DNA of 64,000 bases from Methanohalophilus euhalobius (GCF_900215215.1 NZ_OBDR01000006.1:1-64000); one strand, 5' to 3'. Shown: positions 28,882 to 50,243, numbered from the stretch's first letter. Numbers and translations are program-made. Notes: a model not told the origin generated them from the sequence alone.

Positions 28882-29466
28882 ATGACCATCGAAGAACGCC
28901 TAGATTTACTTGAAGAAACCATCCAGAGCGAGGAGTTTCTACAAGGTAAAGGATTGGGAAATGAAGTCCCTTTTTGGATATTTGATTATCCACCGGAGAA
29001 AGAACTACTTATACGTTCCAGGATTCCTAAATTAAAAGAGAATTTGAAACTTAAATCAATAAATATTCTGGAGATTGATTTGTATGAACTGTGTCTTGAA
29101 ATTGTCACAGCAAAAATTCCTATGGAACGAATTATGCAATTTGAATCTGACAAAGGATCTGACAAGTTGCTTGAAAAATTAAGATTGATGCTTAAGCCTG
29201 CAAATATCCAGCGAACCATCAAGAAAAAAATGGATGAATTTGGTGATGTGGGTATTGTTTTTATCACTGGAGTTGGGAAAGCCTGGCCTTTTATAAGGTC
29301 ACACTCAATTCTGAATAATTTACAACCAGTTGTGGATGACATGCCACTGATATTATTTTATCCCGGAAAATACAGTGGACTGGATTTAAGCTTATTCGGT
29401 AAATTCAAAGACGGGAACTACTACAGGGCGTTCAGGCTTGTGGATGACAGTGCGATAGACATCTGA
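28882..29466 (+). CDS. brxB: BREX protein BrxB (DUF1788)
   Basis: 194 residues. The ERLDLLEETIQSEEFLQGKGLGNEVPFWIFDYPP start and the VFITGVGKAWPFIRSHSILNNL and PLILFYPGKYSGLDLSLFG blocks are typical of DUF1788, which defines BrxB. It is a small essential BREX factor thought to interact with the other subunits. It opens the operon, 10 bp before brxC. In canonical type 1 loci brxA stands in front of it; here the space upstream is a 132-bp divergent promoter region. Confidence 0.9.
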   Translation: MTIEERLDLLEETIQSEEFLQGKGLGNEVPFWIFDYPPEKELLIRSRIPKLKENLKLKSINILEIDLYELCLEIVTAKIPMERIMQFESDKGSDKLLEKLRLMLKPANIQRTIKKKMDEFGDVGIVFITGVGKAWPFIRSHSILNNLQPVVDDMPLILFYPGKYSGLDLSLFGKFKDGNYYRAFRLVDDSAIDI

Positions 29467-29476
29467 GGGTGGGAAT

Positions 29477-32400
29477 ATGACTAATGATATTATGATACAG
29501 GATCTTTTTGAAAAGGATATAAAAAGGGATATTAAAGGAGTTATCAAGGTCGATCAATATGACGAAAATATTGTCGATACCGAACTTGATGAATATGTAA
29601 TTACAAGGGAGACATCAAAACACTTGGATGTCTTTTTCCAGCGCTATTATGATGCAATGCTTACTCCCACAGATAAAATAGGTGTGTGGGTTTCCGGTTT
29701 TTTTGGGTCCGGTAAATCACATTTTATCAAAATGCTGTCTTATCTCCTGGAAAACCGTAATGTGAAAGGTAAAAATGCTCTTGATTTTTTCCAGGAAAAA
29801 GTTGAGGATCCTTCAATCTACAGCAATATTGAAAATTCTGTTAATTTTGGCAGCAAGGATGTAATACTTTTCAATATTGATTCTAAGGCCAATACTATCC
29901 ATGCAGATCCGGAACCGATTGTCAATATTTTGATGCGAGCTTTTAATGAAAAGCGAGGTTTCTATGGGGATGTATTCTGGATAGCAGACCTGGAAGAGGA
30001 CTTAACTGAAAAAGAATTGTATGAACAATTCAAACTTGAGTTCAAAAAGATTGTAGGGGATTCCTGGGAAGAGAGGCGTGATTCATATGCTTTTGAACAG
30101 GATGCTATAATTGATGCTCTGGTGGCTTGTAATTATCAGAGCAGGGAATCATTGAATACTCTCTTTCTAAATGATGGGGAGACTTATCATCTGGATGTAG
30201 AGAAGTTTGCCAAAAAAGTTGAAAAATACTGTGAATCCCAGGGAAAAGATCATCAGGTTATTTTCCTGATCGATGAGATTGGACAGTATATTGGTGAAAA
30301 TAGCAAGATGATGCTGAATCTGCAGACCATTGCAGAGGAATTGGGCACAAAACTGGCAGGGAAAGCGTGGCTGGTTGTGACTGCACAGGCAGACATTGAT
30401 ACTATTACAGAAGACCGTGTCAAAGGTTATGATTTCTCAAAGATCCAGGGACGATTCGATACCAGATTGAGTCTTTCCAGTGCCAATGTGGATGAAGTTA
30501 TCAAAAAGAGGATACTTGCAAAAAAGCAAGAATATAATGCAACCCTTGCAGCCTTTTTTGCTGAGAAGAAATATGAACTTAAGAATTTGCTGGCTTTTTC
30601 CAAAGATTGTGCTGAGATGAAATTCTACAGGGGCGAGGAAGATTTCATTAATGTTTATCCTTATGTGCCCTACCAATTTTTCGTTTTGCAAAAGGTCTTT
30701 GAGAGAATTAGAAACAGTGGGTTTACAGGCAAGCATCTGGCAAAAGGTGAACGTTCGATGCTTAATGCTTTCAAAGAGGCTACTGAAAAGTATGCTGAAG
30801 AGAATATGGGCAAACTTATTCCATTTTATTCTTTTTATGATACAGTTGAGAGTTTCCTTGATCCCATTATCAAGTCTACTATCACTCAAGCTCAGGACAA
30901 TTCAGAGTTAGAGGAGTTTGACAATCAGATTCTCAAGTTACTGTTTTTAATAAGAAATGTAAAAGAAGTCGTTCCAAATCTGGATAATCTGGTTGTCCTT
31001 TCAGTGAGTTCTGTAGATGAGGATAAGTTGGAATTGAAGAGAAAGGTGGATGAATCCCTTAAAAGATTAGAACAGCAGACCCTTATCAGTAAGTCCGGAG
31101 ATAGTTATCATTTCCTGACCAATGAAGAACAGGAAATCAACAAAGAAATCAAAAATACCGAAGTTGAGAATTACCGTGTTCTGGATACGATTTATACATA
31201 TATTTTCGGTGATTCCAGTGAGATTTGTCCTACGAGATATAAGGATTATAAGTTTAACAAAGCAGTTGATGAAAAGTACAAATCTGCCGGCAATGCCGAC
31301 CTGACTGTCAAATTCCTGACACCCCTTTCAGATGAATTGTACCATAAAAGTGATCAACAATCCCTGTCTGGAGATGTGTTGAGCAATGTTGATTCCAAGG
31401 AAACTTTACTGTTTGTTTTCCCTCCGGATAGTAAAGTAGTTGATATGGTTCGCAACCACCTGAAAATAGAGAAATATCTGCGTCAAAATAGTTCAAATTC
31501 CAATATATCAGAAATTAATGATATTCTCCGTTCCAAGGAAGTGGAAAAGGAAAAACTAATTGATGAGGCTAAAAGGGCAGTATTTGAAAGTGCAAAGAAT
31601 GCACGTGTTTTTATTCATGGGAAAGAAGTGAACAGTATTGAGAAGAAAAACCCTAAGGAGAGAATTAAGGATGGGCTTGATGAACTTTCCCAGAATGTTT
31701 ACAGTAAGGCATCCTATGTCACTTATGATTACGATTCTGATAAGGATGTATTGAGGGTATTAAGAGCTGATGACCTGGAAAAGTTTGGTGTAGGGAAGTC
31801 TGATACAAATAGGAATGCTCTTGAAGAACTGCGTGATTATATCAAAGTCCGACATCAAAGGAATGATGTCCTTGTTTTGAAGGATATCAAGGAGAAGTTT
31901 TCGAGCAAACCATATGGCTGGAAGGATATGACCATTGCAGGTCTTGTAGCCACTCTTTTTGCCAACGAGGAAATCAAACTCTCCTACCAGAAAACTGCTT
32001 TGATCCTTAAATCTGAGAATGCCGATGAGATTGCCCGTTATCTGACTAAAAGGGAAGATGCTGATAGAATAGTTGTAAAGATTTGGGAAAAATCCAATCA
32101 GCAGACAATAAAGGCTGTCAGAGATGTGTTGAATGATGTGTTTGACAGGACGGCAATTCCTGAAAAAGAGAATGATCTTTTTGAATATACAAAGCAGGTT
32201 TTCAGCGAGAAAAGGGATGCTGCAGAAAAATATGCTGGACGTTATCAGGAAGTAGAAGCCTATCCAGGCAGAGAAGAGATCAGAGCTTACAGTGATTTCC
32301 TGAAAGAAATCAATCAAATCAATGATCCATCTGATTTTTTGCAGGAGGTTGCAGATAGGAAAGATGAATTGATAGAAGTTCACGAAGAAGCCAAACATTC

Positions 32401-33043
32401 GATTGGTTTCTTTGAAAGTCAGATGGTTGATATTTTCAGGGAAATGTACAACAGGGCAGATAAATATGAGCGGAATCTGCAGTTTCTCGATGCAGATATG
32501 AAGCAAAATGTCCGGACTGTACAGGAAATTCTGGAGATGGATAAACCATACTCCCGTATCAAAGAATTACCGCAGTTAGGCGGGAAAATAGATGATGCTC
32601 TCCAGAAGAGTCTTGATAATCTAAAGGAAGAAGGGTACGAGAAACTAGATCTCCGCAGGACAGAAGTTGCTCGGGAAATCGATTCTTATGGAAACTTAGG
32701 GAATGGTTTCAAAGATCGTGTTTTGCAGCGTTTTGATCATCTAAAGGGTAAGATTGCAGAATGTGAAGACTGTGTATATGCAAAAACCCTGAATGATTCT
32801 ATCGATGACCTGTACAAGGATGTTACTGATGAAGTTTCCAGACAATTGCAAATAATCAGGGAAAGAGATGATGTTGAAGGTGGAGAAGAAAAGCCTCATG
32901 TCAAACCTGTAAGGGTTGTTGATGCATCTGAATTTAGGAGTCAAAAGAAAATCGAGACCGAAGAAGACCTTGAAGAATATCTAGACAGCATTCGGCAAAA
33001 ACTGAAGGGGCTGCTTGAAGAAAACAAGATCACGGTGGTCTAA
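29477..33043 (+). CDS. brxC: BREX ATPase BrxC
   Basis: 1,188 residues, the usual BrxC/PglY size. Walker [16 protein letters not shown] is near residues 75-89, and the acidic Walker B is [13 protein letters not shown] (about residue 263). The rest is long helical and partly coiled coil. BrxC is a large ATPase needed for phage exclusion and methylation in BREX type 1. GGTGGGAAT precedes the ATG. Its stop overlaps the pglX start (TAATG), so the two are coupled. Confidence 0.93.
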
Positions 33044-36000
33044 TGGATAAGAGCAGTATCATTACATTTTCCAATTCATTACGAAATAAACTGGTGCAGG
33101 AAGTAAAGGATAGGGCTGCCTTTTACGGTATCCTGCCGGATAAAGTATTACCCGTGGATTCAGAGCATGCGGATTCCATTGTTATCGGAGGTAAGGTCTA
33201 CAACAAGAAGATCAAAAACCAACGTGCAAGACTTGTGAAGGAAGTAGCCGAGAAGGGTTATGAGAAGGTGATGGACGAAGTAACCTATACCTGGTTTAAC
33301 CGGTTTGTGGCCCTGAAGTTCATGGAGGTTAACGATTATCTGCCTGTAAAGGTATTTACCTCATCTAATGCAGACAGGAAGGAACCTGAAATCCTGACAA
33401 AAGCAGCAGACCTGGATTTTTTGAAACTGGATCTCGATTATGTACTGGACATCAAAGCCGAGGGCAAGGATGAGGAACTCTATCACTACCTGATCCTCAA
33501 AATCTGCAATTACCTGCATGAGATTATGCCATTCCTGTTCGAGCAGATCGAGGATTACACCGAATTACTCATCCCGGAATACCTGCTCCATACGGATTCG
33601 GTCCTTGTGGAATTGAATGATATCATTCCTGAGGAGGACTGGCAGGAAGTTGAGATCATCGGCTGGATCTATCAGGATTACGTGGCACCACGTAAGGAAA
33701 AAGTGTTTGCCAACCTGAAGAAGAATGTGAAAATCAATAAGGAAAACATTCCTGCAGCGACCCAGTTGTTCACTCCGAAGTGGATTGTCAAGTACATGGT
33801 GGAGAATTCCCTGGGCAGATTATGGCTGGAATCCAATCCCAGTCCCAACCTGCAGGACAAGTTTGAGTATTTCATTGACCAGGAGACCCCTGAGCCGGAA
33901 GAAAAAATCTACAGCCCCGAGGAAATCACCCTGCTGGACCCGGCGATGGGATCAGGCCATATTCTGGTCTATGCTTTTGATGTATTTTATGAGATCTACC
34001 GCTCCATGGGCTATCTGGATAATGAGATCGCTCCCCTTATCCTGAACAAGAACCTGTACGGTCTGGAGATCGATGACCGAGCCACCCAACTGGCAGGATT
34101 TGCCCTGATGATGCAGGCCCACAAATACGACCGCAAGTTATTCGAAAAAGACATCCAGCTCAACCTCTGTTCCATCCAGGAGACCAACAATATAGATTAC
34201 ATCCCCGAGCAGAAGTATCCCGAACTGCACCGCCTCATCGAATTCTTCGAGGATGCCAAGGAATACGGCTCCATCCTCAAAATGCCCAAGTTCGATTTCG
34301 ACAAAATCGATGCCGAATACGCAAAGTTCAGCAAGAATCCTGCCATAGATACTTTCGGAGATGTGCCAAACAGCCCGGATGCCATCATCAAACAGGCCAA
34401 ACTGATGAGCAGCCAGTATGATTGCGTAGTGACAAATCCACCGTATATGGGTAATAAGGGAATGAATCCAATACTCAAAAAATACTCTAAAGACAACTAT
34501 CCTGACAGCAAGTCAGATCTTTTTGCCATGTTTATAGAAAGTAATTTCAATTTTACGAAGCTTGCAGGTCAACTCGGATTTATGGCACCTTATGTATGGA
34601 TGTTTATTTCATCATATGAAAAATTAAGAAATTATTTGATAGAGCAGAAAACTATCACTTCATTGATTCAACTTGAATATTCGGGTTTTGATGGTGCAAC
34701 AGTACCAATTTGTACATTTACAGCTAAAAATGTCCATCTTCCTAATTATAAAGGTGGATATGTAAGGCTCTCTGATTTCCGTGGAGCAATAAATCAGGCT
34801 CCAAAAGCTCTAGAAGCTATAAAAAATCCAGAATGTAGCTGGTTTTATACCGCCTCCGCCGCCGATTTCAAGAAGATTCCAGGGAGTCCGATTGCTTATT
34901 GGATGAGTGAAAAACAAAAAAAGTTATTCATACACGAACCTCTTAAAAAATATGCAACATTCAAAGAGGGTATAACAACTGCTAACAATGACTTATTTTT
35001 AAGACTTTGGAGTGAAGTTAAGATAAGTGACATAACATTTAATTCTAGTGAATCTAATTCTAGTTTATTTTGGGTTCCCTATAATAAAGGTGGAACTTTC
35101 AGGAAATGGTTTGGTAACAACTACTATATTGTTGATTGGAGAATAAATGGCAGTAGAATAAAAGATTATCCCGGTTCATCTTTTCGTAATCCTTCATACC
35201 ATTTTAGAGACGGAGCAACTTTTTCTGCATTAAGTTCATCTTCTTTATCTGTTCGTTATTCTGGGAAAGGATTCGCTTTTGATAGCAAAGGAACTATGTT
35301 TTTCTCAGACAGAGCTTTAAAAGGAATTGTTGTCTATTTGAATTCAAAAATATGTGGCAAACTTCTAGAGTTAGTGACACCTACATTAGATTTCAGATTT
35401 GGAACCATACAAGAACTGCCATACCTAAAAAATGAACCTTTAAATTTTGAAAGATTAGTTGAAGGTTCAAAATCCGACTGGGATTCCTACGAAACATCCT
35501 GGGACTTCACCACCTCACCGTTCCTTAAAACCGAATTCCACAGTCCAACCCTCGAAGAAACCTACTCTAAACTCCGCACTCACTGGAAAGAAATGACATT
35601 GGATATGCAGCGACTGGAAGAGGAGAACAACTGTATTTTCATTGAGGCTTATGGTTTGCAGGATGAAATGACACCTGATGTTCCCCTTTCAGAGATCACG
35701 CTGACCTGCAATCCTTATTATCGGTATGGAAATAACAAATCAGAGGAAGAACTTGAAGCATTGCGGTTTACTGATACCATAAAAGAGTTTATCTCCTACG
35801 CCGTGGGCTGCATGTTCGGGCGGTATTCTCCGCATAAGGAAGGTCTGATTCTTGCCAATCAGGGAGAAGGAATGCAGGAGTTTATGGAGAAAGTGCCTGA
35901 TGCAGAGTTTTTGCCGGATGAGGATGCCATCATACCTATACTGGATGAGGAGTATTTCACAGATGACATCGTGGGCAGATTCAAGGAGTTCTTGAATGTG

Positions 36001-36483
36001 ACCTTCGGGCCGGAGAAATTGTCGGAGAATATGGATTTCATTGCACAAGCACTCAGCACCAAGGGCAAGAAGAAAACGAAGTCTTCCGAGCAGGTCATCC
36101 GGGATTATTTCCTGAAGGATTTTTACAAGGACCACGTGAAAATGTATAAGAAGCGGCCGATTTACTGGTTGTTTACTTCAGGAAAGAAGCGGGCTTTCAA
36201 TGCGCTGGTCTATATGCACCGCTATGACAGGACCACACTTGCCAGGATGCGGACAGAGTATCTACTGGAACTGGAAGGGAAAATGGATGCTCACAGGGAG
36301 ATGCTTTCCAGTGAGGATGCCCGCAGTGCAAAGGAGAAGGCGAAATTGGCCGGGTATATTGAAGAAATAATGTCTTATGATGAAGTGCTCAAGAACAAGG
36401 CCGATGCATATATTGAGATCGATCTGGATGACGGGGTTAAGGAGAATTACAAGTTGTTTGATGGATTGGTGAAGAAGATATAA
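33043..36483 (+). CDS. pglX: BREX adenine-specific DNA methyltransferase PglX
   Basis: 1,146 residues. Methyltransferase motif I is [17 protein letters not shown] (about residue 297) and motif IV is the adenine-type NPPY (about 465). The region after NPPY up to about residue 806 should carry the target-recognition domain. That segment is visibly AT-rich (19 G+C of 60 on 35101-35160) compared with the flanks (29 of 60 on 33661-33720), which suggests a swapped specificity domain. PglX marks host DNA at a non-palindromic 5-7 bp site; the sequence cannot be told from protein here. Confidence 0.95.
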
Positions 36484-36545
36484 TTATTAATCAGATAAAA
36501 ATAATTATGAAACCGTTTTAACAATAATATAGAGGGGAATAATTA

Positions 36546-36710
36546 ATGAATAAACCACTTGAATGGTTTAAAAAAGCCATTGATTCAGGCGAGTATGAAA
36601 TAGATGTAATTACTGAGATGGAATCGTGCATCTCCGAAGATGGATTTGATGTCAATGAATTCATGGATTGGACTGATAAAAAAATAAATCAAGAGTTAAG
36701 TGATGATTGA
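36546..36710 (+). CDS. 54-residue acidic protein of the inserted cassette
   Basis: ATG at 36546 with GAGGGG about 10 bp upstream. The product reads MNKPLEWFKKAIDSGEYE at the start and ends DKKINQELSDD: small, soluble, acidic and probably helical, with no zinc or membrane motif. It ends just before, and overlaps the alternative start of, the following ATPase, so the two are coupled. No family recognised. Conserved pairing with the ATPase would mark it as a partner or an antitoxin-like regulator (speculative). Confidence 0.6.
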   Translation: MNKPLEWFKKAIDSGEYEIDVITEMESCISEDGFDVNEFMDWTDKKINQELSDD

Positions 36711-36711
36711 T

Positions 36712-39102
36712 ATGGGAGAAGTAAAAAAAATCACTATATCGGGGTTTAGGGGAATAAATAGACCTCCTTTAGAACTTGATTTTCAAAATGGTAAATCAAT
36801 GATGATTTATGGAACAAATGGTACTGGCAAAAGTTCTATAGTTGATGCATGGGAATGGTTATATTCTGGAAAAATAATGCATCTAGCACGTGAAAATGCA
36901 AAAGAACACGCGTATCCTCACAAAGAAGCAGGTAATGATCAAACTTGGGTAAAAGTTGATTTTACTAGAAGTGAGATTGGGGAAATTGTAGCCACATTTA
37001 ACTTAGATAGGATAACTCATCCCTTCATTGAAGGAAATTACTCTGAGATTAAAAAGGTTGTTTCACATCCTTGCCATCTTAGATATCGTGACTTAACTGA
37101 ATTTGTATATGCGACTAAAGGAAAAAAATATGAATTTTTGTCCTCTCAAATGGGCTTTGGCGATGCCATCAAGATCCAAAACGATTTAAAAAAGGGTAGT
37201 ACCCGGTTAAATGAAAAATTAATTGATCTAAAAAAAGACCTAGAATTTTATAAAAAAGAATATTGTAAAATTACGGGAGAAGAACCTAAATCTATAGAAT
37301 CACATTTAAAGATACTGAATAATATCTTTTATCAACAAGATATTGAATATATCAATGAATTATCTGAATTAAATGTAAAACTTGAAAATTTGAAAGAGAA
37401 AGTTGAAAACGATGAAAAAAGCAAAAAGCTTTCCTATTGGAAAACAATTGAACAAATCATAAATCAGATATATCCAATTGAAAATATATGTACGGATGTA
37501 TCAGATTTTCAATATAAACTTGCCGAATTCAAAAAAGATGAAAATAAGATATCGAAACTTATTCTTTTGGATTTGTATGAAAAAGGTCTTGAGGCTATTG
37601 AGTCTCTAAAGGCTTATGATGAATGTCCTCTATGTGATCAATATTATGGAGGAAATTTGGTAGAATATATTGAACATAAGCAAAAATCATTGAAAAAATT
37701 GAACACAATGCGAATAGAAATTGAAGAAAAGAAGAAAAATGTTAATTCTTCAATTAATGAAATTATAAAAAAGCTAGATTATGCATCTAACAATTTAAGT
37801 CAACTTGATCTTGAATCGCCAATCGTACATTTGAATGAAAATATAAATAAAAGTCTTACTTTTTTTAAAGAATGTAATATACAATTGGAAAAAAGAGTGG
37901 AGAACATTAATACAGATTATGACTTTATAAACAAGATAGATACAAACGAATTTAATTCACTTCTAAATTCACAAGAAGAAATTACAGAATCTATTTCAAT
38001 ACAAATTGATGAACTCGAAAAAAATGAGTATCGCAAAAAATTAGTTTCTGATTGCCATAAACTTCATAATTTATCTAACTATTTTTCAAAATGGTATGAT
38101 TTGAATAGAAGTATATCTTATCTTATACAAATAAAAGATGAATATGAAAAAATAAAGGGAGACTATATTGAAGAAACAAAAAGAAATGTACAGGAGTCAT
38201 TTGATTCGATATCCTCTGATGTGGCCGCCTATTTTAATATTTTAGAATGTGATAATGACGTTCTTGGTGATCCCAAAATAGAATTATATTCAGATAGTGA
38301 CAAAGCGGTTGAGCTTGAAATCATGTTTGGTGGCGAATTTATTAAGCCTGCTTACAAATTCCTGAGTGAATCACAAATAAACAGTTTTGGGCTTTCCATA
38401 TTCTTATCTTCAGTAAAAAGATTTAACTCAACTTTTAAATTTATTATTTTAGATGACGTGATTAATAGTTTTGATATATATAAAAGACCACGTATAATTG
38501 ATATAATATCTACTCATTTTCCAGATTATCAATTTTTGATTCTCACACATGATTCAATTTGGTTTGATCGTCTCCAAAAGAAATTCCCCCAGTGGAAAAG
38601 AATGGAATTTTCTGGCTGGGATTACATGATTGGACCAAGAACTAAAACAGGTAAAAGTACATATGAGCGAATTGATGAATCCTTAACAAATGATAGACCT
38701 ACAGAAGCTGGGTGGTTTTTTGGAAGGTACTTGGAGGGGATGCTTCAAGAATTGTGTGAGTCGTTAGGAGCTTCTGTTAAATTTAAAAAACGAAATGAAT
38801 ATACTCTAATTGAACTATTGCAAGCATTCAGATCCAGAATGGAAAAAAAGCTAAAGAAAGACAATCCAATTGTAAAACAAATAAAAGATTTTGAATTAGA
38901 GTCAGGGTTTAGAAACTTTTGTGATCACTGGAAAAGGTCAGAAAGCGACTATAGTTCATCAGAAATTAGAGAGATAGTTCAGAAATGGAAAAACATAGAA
39001 AAACAAATCGAATGTAATGAATGCCATAAATTCATAAGGTATGAAAAAAATGGAAACTACGAACATATATCGTGTCCTTGCAGGAATACAACTTTAACAT
39101 GA
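36712..39102 (+). CDS. SMC/Rad50-like AAA ATPase with zinc hook
   Basis: 796 residues (up to four more if an earlier start at 36700 or 36703 is used). Walker A MIYGTNGTGKSSIVDAWEWL is near residue 30, followed by long coiled coil with a CPLC zinc hook at about 305-308. The C-terminal ATPase half holds the signature-like FLSESQINSFGLSIFLS and Walker B FIILDDVINSFD, and the protein ends in a CNEC / CPC zinc ribbon (about 768-790). The plan resembles RloC- or PtuA-type defence ATPases, but I see no clear nuclease motif. Base composition is extremely low (14 G+C of 60 on 38041-38100), unlike pglX and pglZ on either side, so it was inserted. Confidence 0.8.
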   Translation: MGEVKKITISGFRGINRPPLELDFQNGKSMMIYGTNGTGKSSIVDAWEWLYSGKIMHLARENAKEHAYPHKEAGNDQTWVKVDFTRSEIGEIVATFNLDRITHPFIEGNYSEIKKVVSHPCHLRYRDLTEFVYATKGKKYEFLSSQMGFGDAIKIQNDLKKGSTRLNEKLIDLKKDLEFYKKEYCKITGEEPKSIESHLKILNNIFYQQDIEYINELSELNVKLENLKEKVENDEKSKKLSYWKTIEQIINQIYPIENICTDVSDFQYKLAEFKKDENKISKLILLDLYEKGLEAIESLKAYDECPLCDQYYGGNLVEYIEHKQKSLKKLNTMRIEIEEKKKNVNSSINEIIKKLDYASNNLSQLDLESPIVHLNENINKSLTFFKECNIQLEKRVENINTDYDFINKIDTNEFNSLLNSQEEITESISIQIDELEKNEYRKKLVSDCHKLHNLSNYFSKWYDLNRSISYLIQIKDEYEKIKGDYIEETKRNVQESFDSISSDVAAYFNILECDNDVLGDPKIELYSDSDKAVELEIMFGGEFIKPAYKFLSESQINSFGLSIFLSSVKRFNSTFKFIILDDVINSFDIYKRPRIIDIISTHFPDYQFLILTHDSIWFDRLQKKFPQWKRMEFSGWDYMIGPRTKTGKSTYERIDESLTNDRPTEAGWFFGRYLEGMLQELCESLGASVKFKKRNEYTLIELLQAFRSRMEKKLKKDNPIVKQIKDFELESGFRNFCDHWKRSESDYSSSEIREIVQKWKNIEKQIECNECHKFIRYEKNGNYEHISCPCRNTTLT

Positions 39103-39173
39103 AATTTATGAATTGTCATTTTTTAGTTCAGTCACACTAATTGAAAAATAAACTTACTTGCTCACATCCAACC

Positions 39174-41789
39174 ATGCTCAACGCCGAAAAGACCGCACAG
39201 GCCATACTCAAAAAATTCAATGATACAGACGGATACAGAGACCGCAGGATAGTCTTCTGGTATGATAAGGACGAGACTGCAACTGATGGCGGGCTTGAGG
39301 AGATCGAACCGATCCTTGAGGAGAACAATATCCGGGTCCACAGGCTTGAGCAGAACTTCTTTGGGACCAAGAAACTCATTGAAGAGGATAAACCTGATAC
39401 CCATTTCCTGATATATTCATCCAGAGGCGAACCACAACACGAGAAGAACTGGTTGCTCGATATACAACTGTACTCCGAGCGGTTTGAAAACAGCCGAATA
39501 TCCGATATAAAGAGTGAATTTGGCATCGAAGGCTATGACCTGGATAACTTCCTGGAAGAGCATTACAAGTTCTTCGACAGCAAGGCACGTGTGGAGCCGT
39601 TCAGGAAATTCTATGACCCGAAATGGCGCCGGGACGAAATGGTACTGGGCTTTCTGGCAGTGCTCACAGGTTCAGATACCATAGATTTTAAAGATATCGT
39701 CCGCAAATTATTCCTCAAATCTCTGTATGAAACTGACAATCCTACCTGGTCCGAGATAAAGAGGCTCAATCTTAAAGACGATTTCTGGGTACTTGCAGGC
39801 AAATACTTCGGATTTGTACAATCTGATCCCACATTACGCAAACTATTCCTGAGCATCCTCCTAACCCACATAAAACGAAACACATCCCTTCCCCTGAAGA
39901 AATACAAGAACTATATCAACTCCATGAGCAATGAATGTGAGATTTTCATCCGCACATGGATGGACCACTCCAAAGACGGGATTTATTTCGATCAATACAG
40001 CAGGGAAACGTTTGAAGACAGCCAGCTCAAACTCGAAAAATATCTCAAACAGGAGATCAAAGAAACTGAACCTTGCGATTACCTGGATGCAGAAGCCTTT
40101 GATGTATTCGATAGAGCAATCATAAGTCGGATTGTAAGCAGTTTATGTAATGACCTGGAAGAATATGAAAAATACCTGGACTGGATCTTCCAGAGAAAAA
40201 CCAAACACTGGTATGCGGACTTCCAGCATATCTACAGTGCTTTGGAATACGCAGTCAAACTCCATAGGTTTGCCAAAGGGTTTGAAAAAACGCTTGCTTC
40301 CTGTAAAGATGTACGTGGATTCATAGCCCGCTATGAGAAAGACCTCTACCAGATGGATTATTACTACCGTAAATTTTACTTCCATTATGACCTCGACAAC
40401 AAGACGGACGTTCTTTCTAAGATCAGGGAACGTGTGGAAAACCTGTACAACAATAACCTTATCGACAAAATGCTCGGCCACTGGAGTGAACTGATCAATA
40501 CAGATGTTGGGGATTACTGGAAAGTAGAACTTGCAGACAGACAGGATGAATTCTACAAATTATATGTGCAAAACACCATTCAAAAGAATGACAGGGATAA
40601 GATTGCAGTCATAATTTCCGATGCGATGCGCTATGAGATCGCTGTAGAACTTCGAGAAAGACTCAACAAATCCAGCCAGGGTACAATGGAACTTAAAACA
40701 ATGGTTGGTTCCCTTCCTTCCTACACCAAATTGGGAATGGCATCCCTGCTGCCTCATGATTCATTGCAACTTAAGAATAATCATTATCTGGCCGATGGAA
40801 TCAGCACTGAAGGCACTCCCAACCGAGCAAAAATAGTGGACACGGCAACTCCTGACAGTGTTACTTTGACATATAAGGAAATAATTGATTTATCAAGAGA
40901 AGAATTACGTGAAAAGTACAAAGGAAAGCGGCTTTTCTATATATATCACGATGTTATAGATTCTACTGGCGAACATTCAGAAGACAAAGTATTCAATGAG
41001 ACGGAAACTTGCATCCAAGAAATCCAAAAAATAATTGGAAAACTCACTAATTCCCAACTTCTGAATAATGTAATTGTAACATCTGACCACGGCTTCATCT
41101 ACAGACGGGACGACCTGGAAAGTGTTTACAAACTCGATAAAGCAACCTTTGATAAAGACAGAATTATCGACTCTAAAAAACGCTTCATCCTCACTACAGA
41201 AGATATCGATGTGATGAACACTCACAAATTCAAGATCAACAATCTTGTTGAAACGGAAAACGATCTTTATGCATATGTCCCGGTAGCAGACTTGAGATTC
41301 AGGATGCAGGGAGGCGGAAACAAGTTTGTCCATGGTGGCCTGGCTCCTCAGGAAATAATCATTCCTGTCCTCAAATATAGCTATAAAAAGAGTGCAGAGC
41401 TGGAGCGCAAAGGAATCAAAAAAGGCAAAGTTGGAGTAACTGTTACAAATCCGGGTCGAAGGATCACAAGCAATTCCTTCTCTGTAAACCTGCTGCAGAC
41501 TGAAAAGGTAAGTGACAAACTTAAACCTTTGAAGGTCCGTATAGCCCTTTGGGACAGCGAGTTTGATGGCGAAAAGGTAAGTGATGAAAAGACCGTGATC
41601 TTGGAACGTTCTTCAGAAGAACCTACAGAACGCCAGCAGAAGGTAATATTAACCCTTGGGAATAATATAGAGAACAAAACATATTATCTCAAGCTGATAG
41701 ACGATGATCCAACTGCGATTAATAAGAATGTAATCGAGCCGATACCTTTTGAAGTAGATCTACTACTGAAAGATGATTTTGATTTTTGA
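39174..41789 (+). CDS. pglZ: BREX alkaline-phosphatase-like protein PglZ
   Basis: 871 residues. The N-terminus RRIVFWYDKDE is the classic PglZ opening. The alkaline-phosphatase core appears as AVIISDAMRYEIAVEL, then YIYHDVIDSTGEHSEDKVFNE and VIVTSDHGFIYRR, giving the expected metal ligands. PglZ is the second constant BREX component with PglX. ATG at 39174 is preferred over TTG at 39141 because it gives the standard N-terminus. Composition matches pglX and brxL, not the cassette before it. Confidence 0.94.
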   Translation: MLNAEKTAQAILKKFNDTDGYRDRRIVFWYDKDETATDGGLEEIEPILEENNIRVHRLEQNFFGTKKLIEEDKPDTHFLIYSSRGEPQHEKNWLLDIQLYSERFENSRISDIKSEFGIEGYDLDNFLEEHYKFFDSKARVEPFRKFYDPKWRRDEMVLGFLAVLTGSDTIDFKDIVRKLFLKSLYETDNPTWSEIKRLNLKDDFWVLAGKYFGFVQSDPTLRKLFLSILLTHIKRNTSLPLKKYKNYINSMSNECEIFIRTWMDHSKDGIYFDQYSRETFEDSQLKLEKYLKQEIKETEPCDYLDAEAFDVFDRAIISRIVSSLCNDLEEYEKYLDWIFQRKTKHWYADFQHIYSALEYAVKLHRFAKGFEKTLASCKDVRGFIARYEKDLYQMDYYYRKFYFHYDLDNKTDVLSKIRERVENLYNNNLIDKMLGHWSELINTDVGDYWKVELADRQDEFYKLYVQNTIQKNDRDKIAVIISDAMRYEIAVELRERLNKSSQGTMELKTMVGSLPSYTKLGMASLLPHDSLQLKNNHYLADGISTEGTPNRAKIVDTATPDSVTLTYKEIIDLSREELREKYKGKRLFYIYHDVIDSTGEHSEDKVFNETETCIQEIQKIIGKLTNSQLLNNVIVTSDHGFIYRRDDLESVYKLDKATFDKDRIIDSKKRFILTTEDIDVMNTHKFKINNLVETENDLYAYVPVADLRFRMQGGGNKFVHGGLAPQEIIIPVLKYSYKKSAELERKGIKKGKVGVTVTNPGRRITSNSFSVNLLQTEKVSDKLKPLKVRIALWDSEFDGEKVSDEKTVILERSSEEPTERQQKVILTLGNNIENKTYYLKLIDDDPTAINKNVIEPIPFEVDLLLKDDFDF

Positions 41790-41798
41790 GGCAGAAAA

Positions 41799-43838
41799 AT
41801 GAACGGGACAGAAATTGATACATCCATTGATGAAAAATTGCAGCAATACTTTGCAGGCCGTGTGGTACGCAAAGACCTCACCAAAATGATGAAAGTAGGC
41901 TACAATGTCCCGGTTTATGTCCTCGAATACCTGCTGGGTTCAAACTGTGCTACCGAAGATGAAGACCTGATAGCAGCCGGTGTAGAAAAGGTAAAAAATA
42001 TCCTCTCCCGAAACTATGTCCGACCGGATGAGGCGGAAAAAATAAAATCCCGCATCAGGGAAAGTGGTTATTACACAATAATAGACAAGGTAACTGTAAA
42101 ACTTAATGAGAGACGGGATGTATATGAAGCCGTATTTTCCAACCTGGGAATTGTCCAGGTGGAAGTTGAATCTGATTATGTAATGCGCTATGATAAACTG
42201 CTTGGTGGAGGCATCTGGTGTATCGTCAAAATGGAATACGAACCCGACCAGATGGGGTCACCCTTCATAATTTCGGATTTAAAACCCATTCAACTGCCCA
42301 ACATCAATGTAAACGAGATCCTTGAAAACAGGAACTTTTTCACAAAAGAAGAATGGATGGACGTCTTGCTGCGCTCTGTGGGGATGGAGCCTTCCAATCT
42401 CGAAGAAAGAACAAAGTGGCATCTTCTTGAAAGGCTTGTACCCCTTGTCGAAAACAACTATAATATGTGCGAACTCGGCCCCAGGAGTACAGGTAAATCC
42501 CACGTTTACAAAGAGATCTCACCAAACTCAGTCCTTATCTCTGGAGGACAAACCACTGTAGCAAACCTGTTCTACAATATGTCCACACGTCAGGTAGGAC
42601 TGGTAGGCATGTGGGATGTTGTAGCCTTTGATGAGGTTGCAGGGATTAATTTCAAAGATAAAGATGGCATCCAGATTCTGAAAGACTACATGGCTTCAGG
42701 TTCCTTTGCCAGAGGTAGAGAGCAGATCAATGCCAACGCCTCCATAGCCTTTGTAGGTAATATCAATCAAAGTGTATCCTCTCTTTTAAAAACTCATCAT
42801 CTATTTGCTCCCTTCCCTGAGGCAATGAATAATGACAGTGCCTTTTTTGACAGGATACATTATTATCTCCCCGGCTGGGAGGTTCCAAAATTTAGGCCTG
42901 AACATTTCACCGACAAACATGGTTTTATTGTCGACTATATTGCCGAATTCTTCCGTGAAATGCGTAAATACTCCTACGCAGACAGTCTATTCAACTATTT
43001 CAAGATGGGGTCCAATCTGAACCAGAGAGACGTAATCGCTGTGAAAAAAACCTATTCAGGGCTTGTCAAATTAATCTATCCCAATGGAAAAATCACCCGG
43101 GAAGAGGCTGAAGAAGTACTTCAATACGCTCTGGAAGGCAGAAGGCGTGTAAAGGAACAACTCAAAAAGATCGGCGGTATGGAATTCTTTGATGTGAACT
43201 TCTCCTATCTGGATAATGAAACCATGGAAGAAGATTTTGTCAACGTTCCGGAAAGTGGTGGTAACAAGATAATTCCTCCAGGACTTGGAAAACCAGGTGA
43301 AGCCTTTGCTGTTGCTCCAAATGAAAACGGAAAAATCGGTGTCTACAAGTTGGAACTGCAAATTGCCACCGGGAATGGAAAATATGAAGCCACAGGGCTT
43401 AGCAGCAATTCAGCAGCCAAAGAATCTGTCAAAACCGCTATCAATTACTTCAAAGCCAATGCCAAATCTATCAGCCAATCCATATCCACCAAAGAAAGTG
43501 ATTATTTCCTCAACTTCCAGGATATGTATGGAATCGGACTGGCAGATGGTCTGACACTTTCCGCTTTTATCAGTCTATGTTCCGGAGCCCTTGACAAGCC
43601 ACTGCATGAACAAACTGCCATAATTGGAGACATGACAATAGGTGGCTCCATTAATGCAGTGGATAATTTGGCAGACCTTCTCCAGGTATGTCTTGATGCC
43701 GGAGCAAAGAAAGTATTGATTCCTTCTGCTTCCACATCAAGGCTGGGAAGTGTACCACCTGAAGTGTTGAGCAAGTTCCAGCTATCTTTTTATGATGACC
43801 CGATAGATGCTGTTCAGAAAGCGTTGTTCTTTATGTGA
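41799..43838 (+). CDS. brxL: BREX AAA+/Lon-like protein BrxL
   Basis: 679 residues. N-terminal DNA-binding region, then an AAA+ module with Walker A LGPRSTGKSHVYKE (about residue 228) and VVAFDEVAGINFKD, and a C-terminal Lon-like domain (from about 490) with GDMTIGGSINAVDNLADLL and KKVLIPSAS. In true Lon the lysine of the dyad lies in GGLKEK; here that position reads VDNLAD, so peptidase activity is doubtful. BrxL is the marker of BREX type 1. It starts 9 bp after pglZ. Confidence 0.93.
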   Translation: MNGTEIDTSIDEKLQQYFAGRVVRKDLTKMMKVGYNVPVYVLEYLLGSNCATEDEDLIAAGVEKVKNILSRNYVRPDEAEKIKSRIRESGYYTIIDKVTVKLNERRDVYEAVFSNLGIVQVEVESDYVMRYDKLLGGGIWCIVKMEYEPDQMGSPFIISDLKPIQLPNINVNEILENRNFFTKEEWMDVLLRSVGMEPSNLEERTKWHLLERLVPLVENNYNMCELGPRSTGKSHVYKEISPNSVLISGGQTTVANLFYNMSTRQVGLVGMWDVVAFDEVAGINFKDKDGIQILKDYMASGSFARGREQINANASIAFVGNINQSVSSLLKTHHLFAPFPEAMNNDSAFFDRIHYYLPGWEVPKFRPEHFTDKHGFIVDYIAEFFREMRKYSYADSLFNYFKMGSNLNQRDVIAVKKTYSGLVKLIYPNGKITREEAEEVLQYALEGRRRVKEQLKKIGGMEFFDVNFSYLDNETMEEDFVNVPESGGNKIIPPGLGKPGEAFAVAPNENGKIGVYKLELQIATGNGKYEATGLSSNSAAKESVKTAINYFKANAKSISQSISTKESDYFLNFQDMYGIGLADGLTLSAFISLCSGALDKPLHEQTAIIGDMTIGGSINAVDNLADLLQVCLDAGAKKVLIPSASTSRLGSVPPEVLSKFQLSFYDDPIDAVQKALFFM

Positions 43839-45060: not shown

Positions 45061-46419
45061 TTATAATGCAACCATAAATATAAATATGAAAGAAAATACA
45101 ACTGTAGTGAATAGTAAATATGAATTTTCCATCACTTTTTTATGTCGTGGTAAGGCTGAATAGTAAGATTCAAAATCACGAAGTTCTTCAGTCGATTCAA
45201 AATATTTCTTAGCTCCAAAGAATCTTTTCATCACTGCACAATCAATACAGATACTAGCATTTGTCATTCTTGTTACTTTTACATGACCTTTGCAGGTGAT
45301 GGAACCACATTCTTTACAATACCATTTGGACCTAAATATGATTTTTTTTGTAATATTTGAGTTGCAAACCCTACAAAAATCAGTTTCATTTTTGGTAACG
45401 ATATTATCGCTAGGTGTTTCAACAAAATAGATATTATAGTCATTTCGTTTTGCTTGTATGTTTATTTCCCATTTTGGGTAATATAAGCATTTATAATTGG
45501 ATATTGTTATGTCCTTTGCTTTTGGAATGCATTCTTTTATATATTGTACATTATTTTTTCCTTTATATCTTATGTTTCTAGTATGACTGATTATAATTTC
45601 ATTCATAGCAAGTTCTTTTAATTCACTTTCATTTAGTCGAAAGTCTATTTTGGAAGAAAATTGGTTTTCTGGTAATGTTTTAAAATTTATATTTGAATCA
45701 TTTATTAGCAATCCAGCCAAGTTATAATCTAATAGATTTCCTCTTTCCCCATCAAAAAACAATTGTCCATTTGCCCTTTCATTGTGAATGATACCTACAG
45801 TCGTAGAAAAGTTAGCAGATATGTTGTATTCGATATAGAAAACTGGATGGAATACTGTTCGTATATTCTGTACGACTAAGTCCATTTTACTAATGGCATT
45901 AACCGGATAGAAGAAGTTTTCTAATGTCCAGTTTATTGTTTTTTCTTTTGGCGAGTAGTAAGTCGATTCATTGCTATATGCTTCAATAATCCCATTTTTT
46001 AAATCCACCTTAGCGCCGATTGCCAATTCTTTTAGTTCTCTGCCATCAATTAATCTAATTTCTATATTTTCAAGTGAATTGTTTATTTCTTGGGCATATT
46101 GAACTGCATTTGGTGAAAACGAACTTGATGTGACCACATAACCTTGTTTTTTTCCAACATGATTTAAAGTAACTACTGCAGAGTGTAATTTTTGTACAAC
46201 GGGCCTTCCTATTTTACTTTGATGATGCTTGCATTCCACTACTATTTTTATTAACTCACCATTTGGGTCTTTCTTCTCCATAACAATATCTTTTCCACCG
46301 TCATTAGAACAAGGAGTAACAATAACGTTTCGAAAACCATTTTTCCTAAAAATATCAGCAACTACTTCCTCAAACTGATATCCATTTAAGGAATCTAACA
46401 AGATATTATCATCCAACAC
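45061..46419 (-). CDS. Mrr-like restriction endonuclease with zinc finger and membrane anchor
   Basis: 452 residues. Residues about 5-130 form an Mrr-type PD-(D/E)XK domain with NDGGKDIVMEKKD and KIVVECKHHQS (Asp...Glu-x-Lys) and VVQKLHSAV. Then a beta-rich region of unknown kind, a multi-cysteine zinc segment (CRVCNSN, WYCKECGS, ICIDCAVM) and a final hydrophobic helix LLFTTVVFSFIFIFMVAL ending the protein. GTG at 46419 is supported by GGAGTGGGT just upstream. Mrr nucleases cut modified DNA; the tail would tie it to the membrane. Last gene of the leftward set. Confidence 0.8.
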   Translation of the reverse strand: MLDDNILLDSLNGYQFEEVVADIFRKNGFRNVIVTPCSNDGGKDIVMEKKDPNGELIKIVVECKHHQSKIGRPVVQKLHSAVVTLNHVGKKQGYVVTSSSFSPNAVQYAQEINNSLENIEIRLIDGRELKELAIGAKVDLKNGIIEAYSNESTYYSPKEKTINWTLENFFYPVNAISKMDLVVQNIRTVFHPVFYIEYNISANFSTTVGIIHNERANGQLFFDGERGNLLDYNLAGLLINDSNINFKTLPENQFSSKIDFRLNESELKELAMNEIIISHTRNIRYKGKNNVQYIKECIPKAKDITISNYKCLYYPKWEINIQAKRNDYNIYFVETPSDNIVTKNETDFCRVCNSNITKKIIFRSKWYCKECGSITCKGHVKVTRMTNASICIDCAVMKRFFGAKKYFESTEELRDFESYYSALPRHKKVMENSYLLFTTVVFSFIFIFMVAL

Positions 46420-46470
46420 AGACCCACTCCTATCAGTAAAGCTATTTCATTCAAGTTTTAATTTATCTTC

Positions 46471-48918
46471 TTAGTAATCTGTATCAATATCACCAGTCAA
46501 TTCTCCACCAAGGTATACCTTATTCAAAGCAGTTGAGAAACCAGACCAATCATTTTCAAAGTTCTTTATTTCATAGTTCTTACTAACTAATCTATCTTCG
46601 AGAATGCTGTTATTGTCTTTCTCAACTACAAAATCGCCTAAAACCATCTTAAGCTGCTCCCAATCATTGTAGAAATATTCCTGTAACAAAGGTATAACCC
46701 GATTATACCAAACAAAATACAATTTATTCTTGGCCTGCTCTTCTTCCAGTTCTACAACTTCACAAAAGTAACTATGCCCGATTTGATGATCTCTGTCTAT
46801 TAGTGCGGATAGCATACCATTTAATTCTTTCAACAATGAACCAATATTAACTCCATCAATTTCAACATCAATAATGGAATAATCAGGCATCATTTCCAGA
46901 AAAGTAAACCTTCTCCTCAAAGCAATATCCAGCAATGCAATTGAACGATCAGCAGTATTCATCGTTCCTACTATGTAGAGATTTGAAGGTACAGAAAAAT
47001 CGGTTTTTGAGTAAGGAAGTTTTATAGATATCTCATTGGATTTACCTGAACGTTTATCGTCTTCAATAAGAGTAATTAATTCTCCGAATATCTTTGCAAT
47101 ATTTCCTCTGTTGATTTCATCTATCACAAGAACATAATTATTCTCTGGGTCGTTTTTGGCCCTTTCACAGATGTCCTTGAATACACCGCTTCCTACCTTA
47201 TATGAAACATCACCTTCATATACAATCGGTTTCAAGCCTTCTATAAAGTCTTCATACCCATATGATTGGTGGAAAGTAATGAACGTACAATAATGACCAA
47301 AGTCTTTTTCCTCATAAATTTGTTTATTTCCTGTAAAAAGGTCGATTGCTTCTGATAAGTTATTTTCTACATATTCGATTCCCTCAGGTAGCAGGTACCA
47401 TTCACTACTCGAAGCCTTATCGAATAAAGTGGGAGAACTTTTGTTTTCAGTTTTTACAGTTTCACTGTTAGGATTTGAATGAGATTGTAGTTGACCCCAC
47501 AAAGTTTGTGAAAAATTCCTTTCTCTTCCCCTTATTTTTTCAAAATAAAATTTTATGATATCATGATTTTTTAAATCTGGGACCTTTACCGTTTCATTTT
47601 TGCCATTTAAATAAATCGATAAAGCAACCACTTGATACCACTTCAAATCCTGAAGTAATTCTATTTTCATCTCTTCGAATGACTTAGGTTTAGATAATTG
47701 ATCTTTAAGAAAAGATTTGGTGAATTGTTGAATGGCGTATGTCTTTCCTGTACCAGGCGGGCCATATAATATCACATTTTTAGTATGTACTAGTGTATTG
47801 TGGAGTAGGGATTTGTTTTGAGTAGTGATATTTGGAACATCGATATCCTTTAACCACCATAAAAATAAATCTACATCCATATAGGTTGCATCTTTCAAGC
47901 CATTGATCTTCAAATTTTGCAGAATATTTGACATATGTGGCTTCATTGCGATGTAGTATTCCCCTTGATCACCTTTGCTTCCATAAGGCAGAGTTCCTTT
48001 AATGTCAATATTCATTCTTGAAAAGAAATCATCGACTACAGAATTTTTAATCCAGAAATTATTAGGTTCTTTTAAACAAAGTAATTCACTTAAAAAACCA
48101 ATCCCCATATTATTGAATGATTTGAGTGCCTGATTTATATCATTTTCATTAGGCTTTGTGCTTTCCAATGAGGTTATGAGATCTACTTTGAAATTATCGA
48201 AACCACCATTATTGGCAAATATTGATTCTATATTATAACGTGCACCATAGGCAGCATCGGTATCATTTAATATTTCAAGCATCTCTTCTTCGGTAAGTGC
48301 TTCAGAATATTGATTTGTAAGTTTTTCACGTACCATCTCACTACTTTTTATGTGCTCCTTTCGATGATTTTTTAGCTCATCGGAATCCAATTGTGAAATA
48401 AAATATTTTACCAATTGTGAAATATCCATTTTGTCTCCATTCTCCAGTTGAGCAAATATATCTTTGTATTTATTATTCATTTGAATATATCCGTTCTTTA
48501 TTTCTTCCCATTTCCATTCTTCATTGACTGGAGTAATTGTTTTATTAGCAAGATTATAGGAAAGAGTAATTTGCTCATTAATGAGCCAATGAACCAATCG
48601 TGTATGGAGGTACTCAATTCCGGGATTTTCCGGATGTTGTGGCTCAAGATAATTACTTGTAATCTTTCCAATTCCTAATACGGTATTTTGACCATTGACG
48701 GCGATTACTACATCCCCTTCACTCATGTCATTATAAAAGTACCAGATTGAGTTTGCATCATTAGTGCCATGAGATTGTTTTACATCATCCAGAGACTCAT
48801 ATCCAGAATAACTTTCATCACCATCCCATCCTATTCCAATACATTTATTGTTCAAAAATTCATTCCAGAGACGACCTTTTTCCCCAGGGCGTATAAACCA
48901 TTTGTTACCCATATTCAT
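46471..48918 (-). CDS. mcrB: McrB AAA+ GTPase with N-terminal EVE-like domain
   Basis: 815 residues. The N-terminal 110 or so residues (WFIRPGEKGRLWNEFLNNKCIGIGW, then EGDVVIAVNGQNTVLGIGKI) look like an EVE/PUA-type domain, a reader of modified bases. A helical linker leads to the AAA+ motor: Walker A LYGPPGTGKTYAI (about residue 384), Walker B VLVIDEINRGNIAKIFGE and the McrB hallmark GTMNTADRSIALLD. The ATG overlaps the stop of mcrC (ATGA). With McrC it forms a type IV system that cuts modified DNA. Confidence 0.93.
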   Translation of the reverse strand: MNMGNKWFIRPGEKGRLWNEFLNNKCIGIGWDGDESYSGYESLDDVKQSHGTNDANSIWYFYNDMSEGDVVIAVNGQNTVLGIGKITSNYLEPQHPENPGIEYLHTRLVHWLINEQITLSYNLANKTITPVNEEWKWEEIKNGYIQMNNKYKDIFAQLENGDKMDISQLVKYFISQLDSDELKNHRKEHIKSSEMVREKLTNQYSEALTEEEMLEILNDTDAAYGARYNIESIFANNGGFDNFKVDLITSLESTKPNENDINQALKSFNNMGIGFLSELLCLKEPNNFWIKNSVVDDFFSRMNIDIKGTLPYGSKGDQGEYYIAMKPHMSNILQNLKINGLKDATYMDVDLFLWWLKDIDVPNITTQNKSLLHNTLVHTKNVILYGPPGTGKTYAIQQFTKSFLKDQLSKPKSFEEMKIELLQDLKWYQVVALSIYLNGKNETVKVPDLKNHDIIKFYFEKIRGRERNFSQTLWGQLQSHSNPNSETVKTENKSSPTLFDKASSSEWYLLPEGIEYVENNLSEAIDLFTGNKQIYEEKDFGHYCTFITFHQSYGYEDFIEGLKPIVYEGDVSYKVGSGVFKDICERAKNDPENNYVLVIDEINRGNIAKIFGELITLIEDDKRSGKSNEISIKLPYSKTDFSVPSNLYIVGTMNTADRSIALLDIALRRRFTFLEMMPDYSIIDVEIDGVNIGSLLKELNGMLSALIDRDHQIGHSYFCEVVELEEEQAKNKLYFVWYNRVIPLLQEYFYNDWEQLKMVLGDFVVEKDNNSILEDRLVSKNYEIKNFENDWSGFSTALNKVYLGGELTGDIDTDY

Positions 48919-50213
48919 TCCTCTTCCAATATTTTTCTAATGTCTTCGATAAGTTTCTTTTTATTAACTGGATTTGTCAAATCAATCCTTAAGTCTACAG
49001 TTGCAACCTTTATTTGTTGACCAGTCGGTTTAAGCATGTATTTTTCAATAATATGTCCATTTATTCCTGATGTACGAGGGTAAAGGAGAATGATTTTTGA
49101 GCAATCATATCTGTTAGCATAAGCGGCCATCTGATACATATCCGCCACAGAAACTCCTTTCTTTCGATCTTTCTTCCTTAATTTTTTGTACTTTGTGTCA
49201 ATAATAAGTTTTGTTATCTCTCTTTTGTTGAAAAGAATGTCTGGAATAAGCCAAAATGATTTTTCTTCTTTTGAATTTCTAGCGAGCTCCTTCCTACCCA
49301 TCTGTGAATAAAGATTGCAGTCCAGAAGATCTTCAGGAAGAATTGATCTGCGGTGTTTTTTTAGAAATCGTGCAATAAAGCGTTCAAAAAGCACATTCAT
49401 ATCAAATGTAAATGCAAAAGAACTCATGGAACCCACTGATGTCTCGACAACATTTGCATCGATAAACATTTTAGCCATATTAAATGCTGGCCGGTAATTT
49501 TCATTCAGTCTTGTGAAGATGACTTTGTTTAAGAGTGGAGTTGGGTTGGAGACATATGCGATATTTTCCATTTGATAATCAAGAATATGCAGGTTCTTTC
49601 TGTTTTCAGAATCTTGAGACTGATATTTCAATCTTCTTACAACGAATTTAAGTATCTGATTTAGTGGTATATCGGGGCTGAATTCATCATAGTTGACATA
49701 AAAATGGTGTTTTTTGAAACAATTCGAAATTATATGTTTTTGAACCATCCATTTGCCTTTAAAGTAAGGTAAATTCTCCTCTACCTCCATATACTGCTTT
49801 TGTGCTCCCTTTTTGAATACATCGATTAGATTTTTTATAAACATATAAGTTAATATCTCAAACCAGGCGGCTTTCCGAGATTGCATATGTGCGATGTCAC
49901 TTTCATAGATTGGTATGTCATAACAATAATGAAGCAAATATAGAAGATTTCGCTGAGAATTTTCTATCTTTGAGGCTCTTGTCAAACCATCACTATACAT
50001 TTTTGGTAATATCTCTATCGAAAGGTCACTTACTTGAATTAAACCAACATATTGTTTTGTATGAAGACCATTTCTTTTCAGAGTAAGGATTTCTCCATTT
50101 GATTCATTTAGTTTTTCGATGAGGTCAAGATGATGTGAGGATGGACCCTGAATAAAATCTGAATATGAGCGAGATTCATGTTCAAAAAGAGTTATAGAAG
50201 TATTTTGAGACAT
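48915..50213 (-). CDS. mcrC: McrC endonuclease subunit
   Basis: 432 residues. The N-terminal beta region VGLIQVSDLSIEILPKM is typical of McrC, and the PD-(D/E)XK site is seen as FWLIPDILFN followed by KLIIDTKYKKL near residue 325. It cleaves DNA when McrB translocates and stalls. Here it is transcribed before mcrB, the reverse of the E. coli order. Very AT-rich (14 G+C of 60 on 49681-49740). Confidence 0.92.
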   Translation of the reverse strand: MSQNTSITLFEHESRSYSDFIQGPSSHHLDLIEKLNESNGEILTLKRNGLHTKQYVGLIQVSDLSIEILPKMYSDGLTRASKIENSQRNLLYLLHYCYDIPIYESDIAHMQSRKAAWFEILTYMFIKNLIDVFKKGAQKQYMEVEENLPYFKGKWMVQKHIISNCFKKHHFYVNYDEFSPDIPLNQILKFVVRRLKYQSQDSENRKNLHILDYQMENIAYVSNPTPLLNKVIFTRLNENYRPAFNMAKMFIDANVVETSVGSMSSFAFTFDMNVLFERFIARFLKKHRRSILPEDLLDCNLYSQMGRKELARNSKEEKSFWLIPDILFNKREITKLIIDTKYKKLRKKDRKKGVSVADMYQMAAYANRYDCSKIILLYPRTSGINGHIIEKYMLKPTGQQIKVATVDLRIDLTNPVNKKKLIEDIRKILEEE

Positions 50214-50243
50214 GTTTTAAAACCAATGTACATTTAATATATA

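Follow-up and report, generated by a model that had tools for sequence, protein, structure and literature searches.

The gap between pglX and pglZ in a BREX-1 operon of Methanohalophilus euhalobius holds a two-gene cassette, which is probably a self-contained ABC-HEPN RNase defence module of RloC-like character that would arrest the cell and be held in check by its small partner. The operon runs along the + strand of the DNA analysed (GCF_900215215.1 NZ_OBDR01000006.1:1-64000), whose full 64,000 nucleotides are here called the window, and its features are collected in Table 1. We put at about even the chances that the pair is a distinct two-gene defence system, widespread in archaea and bacteria and absent from the catalogues searched, in which the small acidic subunit gates the RNase and the catalytic arginine has moved between two HEPN helices in the lineage that entered BREX-1. 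A preliminary description of this DNA had proposed a cassette of a 54-aa protein and a zinc-hook ATPase inside BREX, lying exactly between pglX and pglZ; both open reading frames and the CPLC hook were recovered, and the borders hold to the base against BREX DNA of the same genus.

Table 1. Coordinates of the BREX-1 operon, its cargo slot and the motifs of the two cassette proteins in the window.
Feature	Coordinates	Strand	Basis
brxB	28882..29466	+	PADLOC BrxB 1.7e-69, Pfam BrxB
brxC	29477..33043	+	PADLOC BrxC, NCBIfam NF033441
pglX, BREX-1 adenine methyltransferase	33043..36483	+	NF033452, 1347.8 bits; stop 36481-36483 is the left edge of the slot
Cargo slot, pglX stop to pglZ ATG	36484..39169	+	no homology to L146/L147; both flanks 87-94% identical
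GAGGGG, likely ribosome-binding site of the small gene	36532..36537	+	read in the sequence; inferred
Small acidic partner, 54 aa, pI 4.05	36546..36710	+	ORF calls, layout of homologous loci, codon-position changes
Rad50-like ABC ATPase with predicted C-terminal HEPN domain and zinc ribbon, 800 aa	36700..39102	+	GTG 36700; Pfam SMC_N 3.6e-13
Walker A, residues 38-45 (GTNGTGKS)	36811..36834	+	G38, N40, G43, K44, S45 invariant, 85 homologues
Zinc hook CPLC, residues 309-312	37624..37635	+	C309 and C312 invariant, 85 homologues
ABC signature region, residues 555-564 (LSESQINSFG)	38362..38391	+	S556, E557, G564 invariant, 85 homologues
Walker B, residues 583-587 (ILDDV)	38446..38460	+	D585, D586 invariant, 85 homologues
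HEPN-fold domain (predicted), residues 652-770	38653..39009	+	domain model pLDDT 93.5; structure comparison
Glu679, presumed active-site acidic residue	38734..38736	+	invariant, 85 homologues
R738-N739-x3-H743, HEPN motif RNxxxH	38911..38928	+	N739, H743 invariant; one Arg, 675 or 738, in 85/85
C-terminal zinc ribbon, C772-x2-C775 ... C792-x-C794	39013..39081	+	each Cys 96-99% conserved
pglZ from conserved ATG	39170..41789	+	TIGR02687, 806.4 bits; ORF-list start TTG 39141; right edge of the slot
brxL	41799..43838	+	TIGR02653, 1147.7 bits

The pglX-pglZ slot and its interchangeable contents

The gap between pglX and pglZ is a cargo slot with interchangeable contents, often known defence genes. 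BREX DNA of two relatives, one of the same genus (G001) and one of the same family (G013), is 87-94% identical to that of the window, and homology to the loci L146 and L147 ends at 36481-36502, at the pglX stop, and resumes at 39170, which makes the ATG there, and not the TTG at 39141, the probable start of pglZ. Both relatives are without the pair, their slots being filled by a 341-aa gene and a dGTPase-like 536-aa gene, respectively, and a pglZ of the same genus, 93% identical, is paired with other cargo. BREX-1 PglZ was found in 38 of 237 genomes of the host's class; of the 24 fetched loci that show pglX as well as pglZ, 23 have gap genes (24 of 25 counting the window), and among the fetched relatives from the class G018 alone has the pair in its slot. 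The other contents include Gabija in L154, with AAA/TOPRIM and UvrD-type genes of the same layout in L168; AbiLi with RloB in L148; GmrSD in L164; dGTPase or HD-domain genes in L147, L148 and L162; TIR in L156; a YhcG nuclease in L166; a Schlafen-type gene in L169; and AIPR in L160. The 341-aa cargo of the same-genus genome (L146 10096-11118) gave no Pfam or PADLOC match. A 741-aa protein is the cargo of two genomes (L149 7133-9355 and L170 964-3189; 85% identical, GC3 0.23), and its L149 copy likewise matched nothing in Pfam or PADLOC.

The slot itself is already known, genes between pglX and pglZ having been reported in about 7,000 of 9,000 genomes, with about 5,000 of the contents matching no known defence system (Went 2024, PMC11341690). 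Back-up nucleases in BREX were catalogued by Rakesh and Krishnan 2026 (PMC12839542), the main text of which makes no mention of RloC or PrrC.

The cassette had also been called AT-rich, with 14 G+C in 60 bases at 38041-38100 against 30 in 60 at 39541-39600 in pglZ, and both counts are exact. GC3 is 0.29 in the small gene and 0.22 in the ATPase, against 0.49 in pglX and 0.47 in pglZ; this richness is, however, not unique to the cassette, cargo GC3 being lower than that of pglX and pglZ in 22 of 23 loci (0.32 versus 0.52), and the accessory genes neighbouring in the window are likewise AT-rich. Since AT-richness is common to slot cargo in nearly all loci, composition alone was rejected as proof of foreign origin. 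The broader view of a foreign-looking insert agrees with the other genes held by same-genus BREX and with the homologous pairs, most of which stand alone; the opposite picture, in which every related BREX operon would contain the pair as a constant component of like composition, does not hold, as other cargo occupies the same-genus slot.

With regard to the rest of the operon, brxB, brxC, pglX, pglZ and brxL are all present in the window's genome despite the lack of any Pfam BrxA match at E up to 1; control genomes matched that model only below its cut-off, so a diverged brxA is possible. Compared with the same-genus pglX (L146), both ends of pglX are 88-91% identical whereas its middle (window 34914-35782) shows no similarity at the DNA level, consistent with an exchange of the target-recognition part. 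A gene of about 495 aa recurs across the BREX loci of this class (L146 5125-6612 and about 20 related loci) and is absent from the window; it sits between brxC and pglX in L146, gives a weak PADLOC match to pAgo-type models, and has a distant homologue in L169 with Schlafen AlbA_2 and HATPase domains. Adjoining brxB, a divergent TPR-helicase gene (25021-28749, - strand) has PbeA as its top PADLOC match (2.8e-56) and matches an NCBIfam DNA phosphorothioation restriction enzyme below cut-off. Downstream, at 45061-53324 (- strand), lie genes for an Mrr-type nuclease, an AAA ATPase and McrBC component, and a UvrD helicase with a PD-(D/E)XK nuclease, further defence-type genes that mark the region as a defence island.

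The ATPase, its C-terminal domain and the small partner

By sequence and model, the ATPase has a Rad50-type head, a coiled coil and a zinc hook. The full AlphaFold model (pLDDT 89.4) has Rad50 as its top structural match (Z 26.7), with Lamassu LmuB among the Foldseek matches; the top PADLOC matches are LmuB models (E 2.9e-20), Rad50 nonetheless coming first in the structure comparison. Sequence-only comparison with solved structures returned SMC heads and one UvrA-type ABC protein and nothing else. The protein probably starts at ATG 36712, one base past the stop of the small gene, an arrangement also seen in L016 and L024, the closest homologues. Profile comparison with RloC-like proteins, namely four proteins from relatives (L111-L114) that were found with Pfam AAA_13 and possess CxFC hooks and R-x3-E/D triads, gave a probability of 98.3 (E 2.6e-14) over the hook and the C-terminal half of the ATPase.

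A search of the C-terminal region for nuclease folds, suggested in the preliminary description, pointed to the four-helix fold of the HEPN superfamily. For residues 652-770 the model shows a bundle of helices with the zinc ribbon after it, and the best 15 rows of the VIA-align comparison are HEPN-class proteins (Z 9.0-5.6), including HEPN proteins, HEPN-MNT toxins, AbiA and Csm6, followed by unrelated bundles at 4.5; at 9.0, the top Z has a moderate value for a domain built of helices. Foldseek gave no match below 0.001 for this domain, so the HEPN assignment rests on the VIA-align comparison and the motif. HEPN sequence profiles gave no secure detection, the best Pfam HEPN-type matches among the homologues having E 0.018-0.022. 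Moreover, profile comparison of the domain with the RloC-like proteins failed (probability 1.4), so no claim is made from sequence that the two RNase domains share an ancestor.

The residues of the presumed active site are highly conserved. Glu679, Asn739 and His743 are invariant in all 85 homologues, and an arginine is found either at 675 (R-x3-E, 74 of 85) or at 738 (RNxxxH, 11 of 85), never at both and never at neither. The protein of the window belongs to the 738 type, and its R738-N739-F-C-D-H743 fits the HEPN pattern R-x4-6-H with a polar residue after R. R-x3-E...H is the triad of RloC and PrrC, confirmed by mutation in RloC (PMC2610378), and RNxxxH is the classical HEPN motif (PMC3710099). 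To account for the relocation of the arginine, the tree requires about two changes, of which one falls on a long, uncertain branch. The C-terminal domain is thus a predicted HEPN RNase with conserved active-site-like residues, the three invariant residues and the one-of-two arginine pattern favouring catalysis over a non-catalytic HEPN domain. An SMC- or Lamassu-like DNA clamp, whose HEPN domain would be non-catalytic and bind RNA or a partner, with the effector elsewhere, would agree with the LmuB models at the top of the PADLOC matches, with the Lamassu structures among the Foldseek matches and with the weak sequence evidence for HEPN; it is nevertheless quite unlikely in view of that residue pattern, and since the inspected loci showed no further conserved gene of the LmuA kind next to the pair.

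The small ORF is, on its pattern of change and layout, a real gene and a near-obligate partner of the ATPase. It keeps 54 codons with no indels across five homologues, among which changes number 170, 74 and 200 at the three codon positions, fewest at the second, and an ORF of the same layout is present in 76 of 86 ATPase-homologue loci versus 51 of 357 control genes (Fisher p 1e-39). The small partners have a median length of 64 aa and a median pI of 4.57, with 74 of 82 below pI 6, figures biased towards acidity since the most acidic ORF was taken where several overlapped the ATPase start. Their sequence is poorly conserved apart from the hydrophobic spacing, and the small gene commonly overlaps the ATPase start, often by 4 bases, which implies coupled translation. 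A conserved third gene was sought, and a GmrSD_N/DUF262-type gene was seen in four loci only, about 200-355 bases upstream of the pair in L014, L055, L087 and L089, which belong to different phyla.

A small acidic gene placed upstream and overlapping would also suit toxin-antitoxin addiction, with the ATPase-HEPN protein as toxin and the 54-aa protein as antitoxin, the main effect being to prevent loss of the BREX operon or plasmid and not to sense phage; pairs do occur on plasmids, several of them conjugative and some near toxin-antitoxin genes. We regard this as unlikely, a large and fully conserved ABC machine with a zinc hook being superfluous for simple addiction, and the other contents of the slot being phage-defence effectors.

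Distribution and history of the pair

ATPase homologues came from three sources: 80 genome contigs, 34 plasmids and 16 viral contigs, with most of the viral matches confined to the ATP-binding motif. A single-protein query found nothing in the first genome scan, an alignment-based scan recovered homologues, and tblastn against phage records gave no match. The distribution is patchy, with the ATPase in 4 of 99 relatives, and the pair occurs both in other BREX loci and alone, mostly outside BREX and stand-alone on plasmids and chromosomes, in archaea as well as in bacteria such as Ruegeria and Dyadobacter. BREX genes lie beside it only in the window, in G018 and in the Halorhabdus plasmid pHTIA, as judged with BREX-1 protein queries, which distant BREX types may escape, and on contigs some of which are short.

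The cassette was found in only two BREX-1 operons, that of the window and that of G018, in which the same pair lies between pglX and pglZ; in pHTIA the order is BREX-5 pglX, small gene, ATPase and pglZ. In the tree, the window and G018 copies form sister branches with support 100; the pairs grouped around them have no BREX nearby, and the Halorhabdus copy falls in the other half. Most simply, two independent captures of the pair into the same pglX-pglZ gap would explain this topology. Between the window and G018 the ATPase is 61% identical and pglZ 57%. These close identities and the sister position of the two copies led us to set aside the idea of one very recent insertion into BREX.

Similar identities of ATPase and pglZ, indicating that they may have long travelled together, and a position shared by two BREX-1 operons and a BREX-5 operon would be expected of a dedicated subunit that BREX itself requires in the window's lineage. 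Such a subunit is the least probable reading, as the 93%-identical pglZ of the same genus goes with other cargo and most homologues have no BREX nearby. A Rad50-type protein of DNA repair or maintenance, present in the operon by chance and with no role in defence, is in turn highly improbable: Rad50 is the top structural match, and the automatic annotation of some plasmid homologues cites double-strand break repair, whereas the patchy distribution, the sole conserved partner, which is a small gene and not an Mre11-like nuclease, and the position in a slot filled by defence genes all speak against it.

A full pair was also observed at L095 857-3325, on a contig classed as viral in IMG/VR, which suggests carriage by a provirus. 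Two Methanophagales genomes (L016 2839-5330 and L024 7805-10296) have the same two genes after the pair, a HEAT-repeat protein and a DNA methyltransferase as judged by eye.

Relation to known systems and proposed working

By sequence comparison, the pair is RloC-like in anatomy but lies outside RloC's published definition. The ATPase shares with RloC (Davidov and Kaufmann 2008, PMC2610378) its size class, the Rad50-like ABC head and the CxxC hook, together with a C-terminal RNase domain, predicted in the pair, with Arg, Glu and His, the Arg-x3-Glu arrangement occurring in 74 of the 85 pair homologues; a start codon of the GTG type and codons rich in A+T recall the traits of low expression that have been reported for RloC genes. 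On the other hand, the RloC triad is Arg-x3-Glu-x36-52-His, whereas Glu and His are 63 residues apart in the window and 63-83 apart in all 85 homologues, and in the clade of the window the arginine has moved to RNxxxH, leaving none at 675. The RloC-like proteins L111-L114 match AAA_13 at 1e-126 or better, whereas the ATPase of the window has no AAA_13 match at E up to 1, and they have no cysteines where the pair's ATPase has its C-terminal zinc ribbon. Three of the four also have no comparable partner gene, and L114 has one putative 59-residue frame that ends 8 bases upstream. The label of an RloC-type ATPase thus stands for the Rad50-type zinc hook and the predicted RNase domain of the RloC class, and falls short in spacing, AAA_13, zinc ribbon and partner.

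Other systems resemble the pair in part. PrrC with EcoprrI is an ABC-HEPN toxin inside a restriction-type locus that serves as a second line (PMC3710099), but it is without the hook insert and bound up with type Ic R-M, whereas the host of the pair is BREX and its family mostly stands alone. PARIS (AriA-AriB) in Salmonella BREX (PMC11341690) is similarly nested in the BREX operon, combines an ATPase with a toxic nuclease and is a proposed back-up effector; its ABC ATPase, AriA, is however of the OLD type, the TOPRIM nuclease AriB is a protein of its own, and the pair has no AriA or TOPRIM match. Lamassu (LmuA-LmuB-LmuC) has an SMC-like ATPase, its LmuB models giving the top PADLOC matches, but no LmuA nuclease is found beside the pair, the neighbours being pglX, the 54-aa gene and pglZ, and the pair's predicted effector is fused to the ATPase. 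RloC-family HEPN genes were noted in a few Pgl/BREX operons by Anantharaman 2013 (PMC3710099), so the general idea is not new; the sections of that paper used here contain no description of the two-gene architecture, the small partner or the slot exchange.

For the preferred reading of an RNase defence module, a mode of working can be proposed by analogy with RloC and PrrC. An ATPase dimer joined at the hook would sense a DNA structure linked to infection, either ends or stalled or degraded phage DNA, and ATP-driven movement of the heads would unleash the HEPN domain, which would then cleave RNA, probably tRNA as in RloC and PrrC, so that translation halts. The small acidic protein, to judge from gene order and charge, would most likely silence the complex or feed the trigger to it. 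Within BREX the pair may form a second line when methylation-based exclusion fails, with activation specifically upon BREX inhibition being speculative. The response to DNA ends, the killing, the control by the small protein and the triggering on a BREX block, as put forward in the preliminary description, would follow by analogy from RloC, PrrC and PARIS.

The pair offers one concrete answer to what fills pglX-pglZ gaps: its edges are defined, and the same genus supplies natural swap partners. The pair is likewise a testable two-gene system, in which the proposed roles of zinc-hook DNA sensor, RNase domain and small gate protein would be separable by mutation, and its family, with the arginine in two alternative places, provides a natural experiment on HEPN catalysis.
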